64,000 nt of DNA, from the NCBI GenBank assembly GCA_030765645.1, contig JAVCCE010000027.1:1-64000 (forward strand), written 5' to 3'. The position numbers and the translations under genes are program-made. Each line of letters starts with the position of its first letter. Position 1 is the stretch's first letter. The DNA comes from Candidatus Hinthialibacter antarcticus (GTDB lineage: Bacteria; Hinthialibacterota; Hinthialibacteria; Hinthialibacterales; Hinthialibacteraceae). Below, one piece after another: positions 43,758-47,107 of the stretch. Under the pieces are notes generated by a model. The model was given only the letters and a program-made list of their open reading frames with translations. It did not search any database and was not told the DNA's origin.

Positions 43758-44432
43758 ATGAGCTTACCGCCAAATTCCGACGCCTTGGTCGAACAAGTGG
43801 TGCGCCGCGTGGTTGCGCGTTTGCAGGGTGCAAGTGCGCCCGTTGCGCCGCAGCAACGCATGACGGTTCCATGCAACATCTCCGTACGCCATATCCATCT
43901 CTCACGCGAGTCGATGGATGTTCTCTATGGGCGCGGTGCTGAACTGGAACCGATGCGACCCTTATACCAGACCGGCGAGTTTGCCTCCAAGCAAACTCTG
44001 ACGTTGGTGGGGCCGCGGATGCGCTGCCTCGGCGAAGTGCGCATTCTGGGGCCGCTGCGCAAATACACCCAAGTTGAGGTCTCGCGCACCGACGCCATCT
44101 ATCTGGGCATCGACCCGCCTGTGAACCGCTCCGGCGATCATAACGGCAGCGTGGGGTTGATCCTGGTCGGCCCGGCAGGGGTGTTGCACCTCGAAAAAGG
44201 CGTGATCCAGGCCAATCGCCACATTCATCTGTCGGTCGAATCGGCGGCGAAGTGGGGCATCGCAGACAACCAGAGCGTGAAGGTCCGCGTGGAAGCCAAC
44301 GGTAAGAAGACCGTGCTGGAAGAATGCCAGGCGCGGGTCTCTAAACTCTTTAAAGACGAAATGCACCTCGACACCGACGACGGCAACGCCTGCGGGCTGC
44401 GCGGCGGCGAGAAAGTCGAGATTCTGCTGTGA
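43758..44432 (+). CDS. pduL: Phosphate acyltransferase PduL, microcompartment-targeted
   Basis: 224 residues from ATG 43758 (GGAGGGAGAG upstream); a TTG further upstream is in frame but lacks support. PduL converts acyl-CoA and phosphate to acyl phosphate and CoA, recycling CoA inside microcompartments. Two copies of the PduL barrel each contribute zinc-binding histidines: ISVRHIHLSRESMDVLYG and QANRHIHLSVESAAKWGI. LYQTGEFASKQTLTLVGPRM is also diagnostic. The first 25 residues form an amphipathic helix (SDALVEQVVRRVVARL) followed by an Ala/Pro linker, i.e. an encapsulation peptide, pointing to the lumen. It starts the enzyme half of the operon. Confidence 0.96.
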   Translation: MSLPPNSDALVEQVVRRVVARLQGASAPVAPQQRMTVPCNISVRHIHLSRESMDVLYGRGAELEPMRPLYQTGEFASKQTLTLVGPRMRCLGEVRILGPLRKYTQVEVSRTDAIYLGIDPPVNRSGDHNGSVGLILVGPAGVLHLEKGVIQANRHIHLSVESAAKWGIADNQSVKVRVEANGKKTVLEECQARVSKLFKDEMHLDTDDGNACGLRGGEKVEILL

Positions 44433-44459: not shown

Positions 44460-45335
44460 ATGAACAACTCCGACTTGGAACGCATCATCATTGACGAAGT
44501 AATGAAAGCGTTGTCTGAGCAGCGCGGCGACGAGACCCTGTTGCCCGCGCCGCAAAGCGAAACGCTGGACGCCGACGCCTGCAAAAGCCCGGCGTGTTCG
44601 TGCGAAGCGGAGCCGCAGGAAGAATGCGCGTGTCCGCCCAAAGGCGACGGCCCGGCGGTGTTGGTTATTTTCACCGGAGCGCGAGAACCCTGGCAGCCCA
44701 ACGTCGATGCGTTTCAACAATGGATTGGCGAAGGCGTCCAGATTGACGCCGTGTTTTCACCCGACGCTGTCGGCGCGTTTTCTATCGATGAGCTGAACGC
44801 CCTGGGCATTCGCTTGATCGATCGCGTTGACGAAATTCAAGCCATGCGGCAAGACATGGGGCGCTATGCGGCGGTATACATGCCGTCGGTGTGCCGTAAC
44901 CACGCCGCCAAACTGGCGCTGGCCATTACCGATGACGCCGCGCTGAAAATCACCATTGCCGCGTTGGCGCACAAGGTTCCGGTGATTGCATCCAGCGAAG
45001 GCCTCGATAAAGACGCCTGCATCATTTTCGGCAACAACGTGCCGGGCGTGCAGGACGTTCTCGACAAATACCGTATGCAGTTGGGAACCATGGGCGTGAA
45101 GTTATTGCCCACATGCGACGCGGTAGACAAGGTACTTTGTACCGCGTGTAATAAAGCCGATAACGAAAGTTCTGAACTCATTACTTGTGTGGTGACTGAA
45201 GAAGACGCCGCCAAATTGAACGGCCCCGTGGTCAAAGCGGCGCGCGGCGGGCTGATTACCCCGCTGGCGATGGAATCGCTGACCCGGCGGGGCATCGAAG
45301 TCGTCATTGTGCCGCCGCAGCAAGCCGCGCATTGA
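44460..45335 (+). CDS. Microcompartment-associated flavoprotein-like protein with cysteine-rich linker
   Basis: 291 residues. Residues 1-20 (SDLERIIIDEVMKALSEQ) look like an encapsulation peptide. Residues 41-58 are a linker with five cysteines (C41, C46, C48, C56, C58). From about 64 a Rossmann-like domain follows: AVLVIFTGAREPW, then VYMPSVCRNHAAKLALAITDDAALKITIAALAHKVPVIAS. The latter resembles the conserved substrate/FMN loop of the flavoprotein family (PF02441: P-x-x-x-N-x-x-A-K-x-x-x-G-I-x-D). A CTAC motif lies near residue 223. It sits 27 bases after pduL and 39 before the aldehyde dehydrogenase. A lumenal redox role is inferred; the reaction is unknown. Confidence 0.75.
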   Translation: MNNSDLERIIIDEVMKALSEQRGDETLLPAPQSETLDADACKSPACSCEAEPQEECACPPKGDGPAVLVIFTGAREPWQPNVDAFQQWIGEGVQIDAVFSPDAVGAFSIDELNALGIRLIDRVDEIQAMRQDMGRYAAVYMPSVCRNHAAKLALAITDDAALKITIAALAHKVPVIASSEGLDKDACIIFGNNVPGVQDVLDKYRMQLGTMGVKLLPTCDAVDKVLCTACNKADNESSELITCVVTEEDAAKLNGPVVKAARGGLITPLAMESLTRRGIEVVIVPPQQAAH

Positions 45336-45374: not shown

Positions 45375-46811
45375 ATGGACGAACAGCGAATCGCCGATAT
45401 TGTTCACCGCGTACTCGGTGAGCTGCAAAACCAGCCTGCGAGCGCGCCAGCGTCGAGCGGCCACACCCCCACCTGCATGGGCGGCGCGGTCAGCGGAGGG
45501 CGCGACGGCGTGTTTGAAAATATCGAAGACGCCATCGCAGCAGCGAAGCGCGCCTTTCAACAATTTCGCGTCGTCCCGCTCAATGAGCGAAAGAAATACA
45601 TCAAACTGATTCGCGAAGTCTCCCATCAACATAACGACGAATGGTCTCGCTTCACCATACAAGACACCAAAATGGGGCGCGTCGATCATAAAATTTTGAA
45701 GAACGGCATGGCGGCGAACTTGACCCCCGGCGTTGAAGACCTCGAAACCCTGGCGGTCACCGGAAGCCGCGGCCTGATGATGGAAGAATACGCGCCCTTC
45801 GGCGTAATCGGCACCATTACGCCGACGACGAACCCGGTCGCGACGGTGATTAACCACTCCATCGCCATGTTGTCTGCGGGCAATACCATCGTCTTTGGTC
45901 CGCACCCCAACGCGGTGGCGTGCACGCTGCAATCCATGCAGGTGATTAACCGCGCATTGACCGATGCAGGCGCACCAGCGAATTTAATGACCTCCGTCGC
46001 GGAGCCGAGTTTGCGCACCGCCAAAACCATTATGACTCACGACGACATCAGCCTGCTTGTCGTGACTGGCGGGCCTGCGGTTGTTCGCGCCGCCATGGAA
46101 AGCCCCAAACGCGCCATCGTCGCCGGGCCGGGCAATCCGCCCGCCGTGGTGGATGAGACCGCTGATATTCAGAACGCAGCAGTGAGCGTGTATGAAGGCT
46201 CCTGCTTCGACAACAACTTACCGTGCATTACAGAGAAATCGTGCTTCGTGGTTTCGTCGGTCTTTGACGAATTTATCAGCGCGATTCGTCAGCGCGGCGC
46301 CTACCTGTTAGACCGGGCGCAGACTGAGACGCTGACCCGCGCCTTGATTACGCCTGACAATCACGTCAACAAAGATTACATCGGCAAAGACGCCGCCGTG
46401 GTTGCGCAACAAGCGCTGGGGCTGAGCGTCCCCGCGAACTGCGAACTGCTCATCGCCGAAGTTGACCGCAACCACCCATATATTGTGCATGAAATGATGA
46501 TCCCGGTGTTGGGCATGGTCCGGGTCAACTCGTATGAAGAAGCCATTCAAGCGGCGTTTGAAGCCGAGCACGGCTTTGGTCACACCGCCATTATTCACAG
46601 CCGACGCATTGACCGCATCACCGAGTTCGCCCGATTGATGAACTGCAACTTGTTCGTGGCGAACGCGTCCTGCGGCGCCTGTCTGGGCAACGGCGGCGAA
46701 GGCTATACCGCCTTCACCATTGCGGGCAAATCGGGAGAAGGCCCTTGCACACCGAAGACCTTCAGCCGCAAACGTCGCTTCGCCATCGCTAAAGACATGC
46801 GTTTCGTTTAG
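45375..46811 (+). CDS. CoA-acylating aldehyde dehydrogenase (PduP/EutE type), microcompartment core enzyme
   Basis: 478 residues. The N-terminal helix DEQRIADIVHRVLGELQNQ plus an Ala/Ser/Pro linker is an encapsulation peptide. The enzyme oxidises an aldehyde to acyl-CoA with NAD+ in the lumen, so toxic aldehyde does not escape. Motifs are FGVIGTITPTTNPVATVINH, AIVAGPGNPPAVVDETADIQ and GSCFDNNLPCITEK with the catalytic Cys about 284. The C-terminal GEGPCTPKTFSRKRRFAIAKD is typical of the PduP/EutE group. It follows PduL and the flavoprotein-like gene in the operon. The aldehyde chain length cannot be told, because the lyase or aldolase that would make it is not in the window. Confidence 0.96.
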   Translation: MDEQRIADIVHRVLGELQNQPASAPASSGHTPTCMGGAVSGGRDGVFENIEDAIAAAKRAFQQFRVVPLNERKKYIKLIREVSHQHNDEWSRFTIQDTKMGRVDHKILKNGMAANLTPGVEDLETLAVTGSRGLMMEEYAPFGVIGTITPTTNPVATVINHSIAMLSAGNTIVFGPHPNAVACTLQSMQVINRALTDAGAPANLMTSVAEPSLRTAKTIMTHDDISLLVVTGGPAVVRAAMESPKRAIVAGPGNPPAVVDETADIQNAAVSVYEGSCFDNNLPCITEKSCFVVSSVFDEFISAIRQRGAYLLDRAQTETLTRALITPDNHVNKDYIGKDAAVVAQQALGLSVPANCELLIAEVDRNHPYIVHEMMIPVLGMVRVNSYEEAIQAAFEAEHGFGHTAIIHSRRIDRITEFARLMNCNLFVANASCGACLGNGGEGYTAFTIAGKSGEGPCTPKTFSRKRRFAIAKDMRFV

Positions 46812-46816
46812 TCGCG

Positions 46817-47107
46817 ATGTCTTTGCAATCAGCGCATCAGTTTGATCCACATTCAAATGCTGCGTTCGATGAAATTCAAACCTTATTGCCAAACCACGCC
46901 GTCGCGGTCTCACAAGAACCCGGCGGCGTTCGTGTATCCATTTCAAGTGGAAAATTATTTTCTGATTCTGACCTGGGGCGTTTGCTGTTAATCAATGCCA
47001 AGTATCGCGACAATGATCTCATACTGCGCGTCAGCGTCCCGCCAAGCCTCTTTCAACAACTTCAATCTCTCGGCATCGAGCGCATCGTATGGGTGGATGA
47101 GGCGTGA
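46817..47107 (+). CDS. Small unknown protein at the end of the BMC operon
   Basis: 96 residues beginning five bases after the aldehyde dehydrogenase stop, so very likely co-transcribed. The predicted pattern is helix, then strands (HAVAVSQEPGGVRVSIS, NDLILRVSVPPSLFQQLQSL, ERIVWVDEA). No membrane segment, cysteine or known motif was seen, and it is not a BMC, EutN or EutQ domain as far as I can judge. A repeat copy starts 26 bases after the stop. It may be an accessory or regulatory factor of the microcompartment, or a spurious-looking but real small gene. Confidence 0.6.
   Translation: MSLQSAHQFDPHSNAAFDEIQTLLPNHAVAVSQEPGGVRVSISSGKLFSDSDLGRLLLINAKYRDNDLILRVSVPPSLFQQLQSLGIERIVWVDEA

Follow-up and report, generated by a model that had tools for sequence, protein, structure and literature searches.

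A flavoprotein-fold protein encoded beside PduL in Candidatus Hinthialibacter antarcticus: a possible scaffold of the BMC core related to PduM

A gene for a 291-aa protein, here called X, lies at 44460..45335 on the forward strand of the window, by which we mean the whole 64,000-nt stretch of the Candidatus Hinthialibacter antarcticus contig JAVCCE010000027.1 that was analysed. It is recognised from its ORF, its relatives and an AF2 model. The reading we prefer, to which we give an even chance, is that X is a core or scaffold protein in the lumen of a BMC, with a flavoprotein fold and kinship to PduM. A wider proposal, put forward tentatively and falling just short of an even chance, is that PduM is a reduced member of a family of flavoprotein-fold scaffolds (X/TIGR02536) found across BMC types, and that the C-terminal element of ~45 residues is a general, mobile interaction module of BMC cores, separate from the encapsulation helix and found also in EutQ, EutT and BMC-linked RpiB and DeoC.

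It is not settled how metabolosome cores are built and joined to their shells, a question of which PduM forms a small and enigmatic part. PduM carries a functional encapsulation peptide (PMC12108088), its loss leaves core and shell partly separated (PMC12108088, PMC9132943), and, according to a 2025 paper, no sequence homologues of it are known beyond Pdu compartments (PMC12108088). If X is a large relative of PduM, a common flavoprotein-fold scaffold with a mobile C-terminal module would be present in the compartments of many phyla. Such a relationship, if true, would make core assembly easier to test and might supply a second targeting tag for engineering, beyond the known encapsulation peptides. 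The connection with PduM, EutQ and EutT is the interesting part of X; the "flavoprotein" kind of BMC protein is itself already known. Within a partial coverage of the literature, we found no publication linking the X, PduM, EutQ and EutT proteins.

Genomic context and relatives of X

X lies in a row of BMC genes, all on the forward strand. Upstream are a BMC-H shell protein (PF00936; 43332..43610; Pfam 1.7e-29), which is 90-97% identical to its counterparts in genomes of the same family and the sister family, and a PduL phosphotransacylase with an encapsulation-type N-terminal helix (PF06130; 43725..44432; Pfam 2.1e-64), whose true start may be the downstream ATG at 43758. Downstream is a CoA-acylating aldehyde dehydrogenase of the PduP/EutE type, also with an encapsulation-type helix (45375..46811; NCBIfam NF011927, 1.5e-174). 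Among the 61 genomes around the window, each of the five further genera in the same family has X (45-68% identity), as do three sister-family genomes (~32% identity). The order BMC-H - PduL - X is kept in all of these close relatives, with the aldehyde dehydrogenase next wherever the contig continues (one close-relative contig stops inside X), so that the proposed association of X with BMC genes holds in every close relative. A further match, in genome G048, was treated as chance; the 19 kb around it contain no BMC gene by tblastn, and it lies in no sensible ORF (L021). Relatives of X were not found on viral contigs.

More distant relatives were identified by sequence in "Candidatus Omnitrophota", in Poribacteria, in a GRM3-like locus of Rhizobium and in the PDU locus of a Bacillota MAG. 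Thus relatives of X occur in PDU, GRM and PVM-like loci, the last exemplified by L146, a row of class II aldolase - BMC-H - BMC-H - PduL - X' - aldehyde dehydrogenase, where X' denotes the relative. In the order to which one distant match belongs, 69 of the 73 genomes have a member of the X family. We take this order to be Poribacteria, because two Poribacteria records share with it the PduL-X' gene order and the linker of PduL. X' follows PduL in those genomes whose surroundings were examined, and PduL is also found upstream in most of the shorter loci. The linker of every PduL of this type that was checked (L040, L041, L045-L073 and L086-L089) contains four cysteines, as CxxCxxxxC followed by another 5-6 residues on, which by its sequence could be a metal or disulfide site; the PduL of the window does not have it.

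Axen et al. 2014 (PMC4207490) had already recorded flavoproteins (PF02441) in BMC loci, and the description of X as new, made in an earlier note on this DNA, is therefore too strong. The BMC-locus flavoproteins of PDU and GRM loci, for example Ilyobacter WP_013388774, and the family TIGR02536 resemble X in having an encapsulation helix, a flavoprotein-like domain and the C-terminal module, and they likewise adjoin PduL. Compared with them, X of the window is more divergent, being unmatched in Pfam and NCBIfam; its linker is long and carries cysteines, and it has a degenerate first loop and PASANT region. Single-sequence searches with X against Pfam, NCBIfam and the PDB gave no match, and profiles were needed. 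TIGR02536 does not match X at the NCBIfam cut-off of 152.6 bits, and relatives of X score 23-51 bits, mainly in the C-terminal part.

Domain organization and fold

In the AF2 model (pLDDT 83.5, from an alignment of 27 relatives), X begins with a helix followed by a disordered linker; an alpha/beta domain comes next, and the short C-terminal end is also alpha/beta. The encapsulation-type helix covers residues 3-24 (44466..44531, forward strand) of a protein that begins MNNSDLERIIIDEVMKALSE in the translation of 44460-45335. It is kept in nearly all homologues and, as the earlier note said, resembles the helices of PduL and the aldehyde dehydrogenase. The linker (residues 25-62; 44532..44645, forward strand) has low pLDDT and contains five cysteines. 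Residues 63-235 (44646..45164, forward strand) form an HFCD/UbiX-like flavoprotein-fold domain without the decarboxylase histidine, as judged from AF2, Foldseek and profiles, and residues 241-285 (45180..45314, forward strand) form the C-terminal module. X thus has each of the features of BMC cargo: an N-terminal helix, a flexible linker and a position in a BMC locus. From these we infer that X probably resides in the lumen of the protein-shelled organelle.

The best Foldseek matches of the X model are UbiX/HFCD flavoproteins (2ejb, 1.5e-7), and TvaF and human PPCDC reach a TMt of 0.72. A model of the PDU-type relative L043 (pLDDT 87.5) has the same fold; CoaBC and UbiX are its best matches by E-value, and DmrB has the highest TMt, 0.79, among the matches listed. 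Profiles of the X family match the solved flavoproteins DpaB (7.4e-6), TvaF (1.5e-5), EpiD (3e-5) and PPCDC (2.4e-4), reaching the entries 3mcu, 6jls and 1g63 at 7e-6 to 3e-5. X is therefore like the HFCD flavoproteins (EpiD, CoaC/PPCDC, UbiX, DpaB and DmrB) in predicted fold, with significant profile similarity across the NT..K..GI.D region; it differs from them in lacking an equivalent of the decarboxylase His67 and in having the extra BMC helix and C-terminal module. The PF02441-type fold that had been guessed from the sequence was thus right, and three distant relatives also pass the Pfam gathering score of 22.7 bits (L043, 31.9; L040, 29.1; L041, 23.5). X itself does not match PF02441 at that score, so that the fold was recovered by structure prediction but not by the Pfam search of X.

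A C-terminal module shared with PduM, EutQ and EutT

A profile was built from about residues 241-286, using relatives of X only, and run on 90 proteins, comprising those of the window and of the eut and pdu operons of E. coli. Other than X itself, it matched PduM (6.1e-8), the N-terminus of EutQ (3.6e-7) and the N-terminus of EutT (1.1e-6); the next protein scored 0.24. The consensus of the module is ITxxDL...IITPLARDxAxxRGI. EutQ and EutT are like X in having this module of ~45 residues, but there it is N-terminal and is attached to a cupin-type acetate kinase or a cobalamin adenosyltransferase, respectively. Structures of EutQ have been solved from residue 102 onwards, and none exists for EutT; the module therefore appears to be structurally unsolved in these proteins.

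In other genomes RpiB carries the module at one end or the other, and DeoC carries it at the N-terminus. Small proteins beside BMC genes have it as their only domain, preceded by an encapsulation-type helix, or have it in tandem. Of the 17 loci with such arrangements among L126-L145, 15 have a BMC-type gene within the few kb that were extracted. The occurrences recorded are those in X (241-285; 45180-45314), L126-L145, L092 and L158.

Relationship to PduM

In the PDU loci of the Bacillota MAG and of Ilyobacter, the relative of X lies between PduL and EutN-PduO, which is the slot that PduM occupies in E. coli. The Ilyobacter relative matches the models of PduM (1.8e-6), TIGR02536 (1.1e-7) and CoaBC (2.3e-8). 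When the X-family profile was compared with four PduM sequences by hhalign, with 200 column shuffles as a control, the two aligned end to end. The C-terminal module scored 44.8, against a shuffle maximum of 18.8, and the N-terminal helix 19.5, against a maximum of 14.8, beating all 200 shuffles. The middle region is collinear but weak, with 2-3 of the 200 shuffles as good, and this weak match falls on the expected strand-helix-helix-strand.

PduM (TIGR04493 / PF15953) therefore resembles X in its encapsulation helix and C-terminal module, and resembles the PDU relatives of X in its gene slot after PduL. It differs in being only 160 aa long, so that it would miss about half of the flavoprotein domain, and the homology of its middle is suggestive only. 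The link to PduM is firm at the two ends, and the middle of PduM could be unrelated to X. At the TIGR04493 cut-off of 50 bits, X of the window is unmatched and its best relative scores 27.9 bits; no PduM (TIGR04493) was detected in the 386 genomes around the window. The X family would span the BMC flavoproteins (PF02441-like), TIGR02536 and, more distantly, PduM.

Scaffold or redox protein

The absence of the catalytic residue, together with two ends common to PduM, suggests a scaffold role in preference to a new iron-sulfur redox enzyme. We infer this role, as we do any bound flavin, as follows. The N-terminal helix would place X among the core enzymes, alongside PduL and the aldehyde dehydrogenase. 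The middle domain has the predicted HFCD fold, typically oligomeric, and lacks the decarboxylase histidine, and the BMC-associated C-terminal module would probably serve interaction. X could then act as a scaffold or adaptor that helps to hold the core enzymes to one another and to the shell, in the manner of PduM, with FMN optional. A targeting or adaptor element would be expected to occur in fusions, which fits the presence of the X-type domain on the N-terminus of DeoC (deoxyribose-phosphate aldolase) in six genomes (L114, L115, L116, L117, L118 and L122), and of the module on RpiB and DeoC.

The main rival, which we consider unlikely but worth weighing, is that X is a flavin redox protein, in which an FMN-bound domain shuttles electrons for NADH or cofactor recycling in the shell and the cysteines are not needed. 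The fold and the closest solved structures are those of FMN proteins, including, for the PDU-type relative, the redox protein DmrB, and BMC loci often encode flavin domains (PMC4207490). Some PDU-type relatives keep an FTGG-like first loop, NTAAK and GIADN, which are typical of FMN-binding members. These likenesses, read from motifs and models, would count against a scaffold role. The NT..K..GI.D motif is kept in part, with its K and D, and going by sequence the domain of X perhaps still binds FMN. On the other hand, the usual motifs are better kept in the PDU-type members than in the window's family, and the first loop and the PASANT-like stretch are degenerate in that family, in the sister family and in the Poribacteria-type members. 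The genes conserved around X include no redox partner. Furthermore, elsewhere in the genome, beside a BMC-T gene, lies a PduS-like gene, whose product would be of a known flavin/Fe-S type of BMC protein and could fill the NADH- or cofactor-recycling type of role.

An HFCD-type small-molecule enzyme, resembling a decarboxylase or prenyltransferase and acting on a pathway intermediate, would agree with the predicted HFCD/UbiX fold but is improbable. The counterpart of EpiD His67 in X is M129, and no aligned member has a histidine in this column, which was identified in the alignment from H in 1g63 and N in 1g5q (the H67N entry). The second catalytic residue of EpiD we take to be Asn117. The PASANT stretch reads PSVCRNHAAK in X and SRTH, DRTL or SYPM in relatives. 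Since the catalytic histidine is absent and PASANT is degenerate, X is unlikely from its sequence to be a decarboxylase, and an HFCD decarboxylase was ruled out as a candidate on the missing histidine.

The linker cysteines

The proposal that the five linker cysteines are a genuine metal or Fe-S site cooperating with the flavin domain is very improbable, since most of them are not conserved. They lie exactly where the earlier note had placed them, at 41, 46, 48, 56 and 58, with CxC pairs at 46/48 and 56/58; the other cysteines of X are at 145, 187, 219, 227, 230 and 243. Five in a linker of 38 residues is compositionally rare (P ~8e-5 at the window cysteine frequency of 1.2%), but of 34 further long ORFs, some of them probably spurious, 3 also contain a 38-aa stretch with at least five. 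C41 and C46 are kept in all six genera of the family to which X belongs, within a motif TLDxxACx[SG]PxC[ST] at residues 35-47 (44562-44600) that stands in otherwise variable linker; one genus has TIDxxAC. On the basis of this pattern, the C41/C46 pair might be a short binding motif, which is speculation. C48, in contrast, is present in 2 of the 6 genera, and C56 and C58 occur only in X of the window among the aligned homologues. The sister family has CACP instead, a linker of this kind is missing from more distant homologues, and the region is predicted to be disordered. The alignment of homologues thus ruled out a conserved five-cysteine metal site. Homologues lacking the cysteines, which the earlier note had named as evidence against its proposal, tell largely against the metal site, while the helix and the fold survive.

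Other BMC genes of the genome

In the window genome, BMC genes are found apart from one another on at least four contigs, with BMC-H on C27 and C12, the PduS-like gene and BMC-T on C45, and three BMC-P on C65. This scattering resembles the "FRAG" types (PMC8217296). As a candidate signature enzyme, the genome encodes a single class II aldolase (L150), which lies away from the BMC genes. The contigs concerned are C12, C27, C45, C65 and C69. Downstream of the aldehyde dehydrogenase, the window also encodes a protein of 96 aa (46817..47107, forward strand), without a family match in Pfam or NCBIfam, and a gene in the equivalent position, with 32% identity, is present in G004 only.
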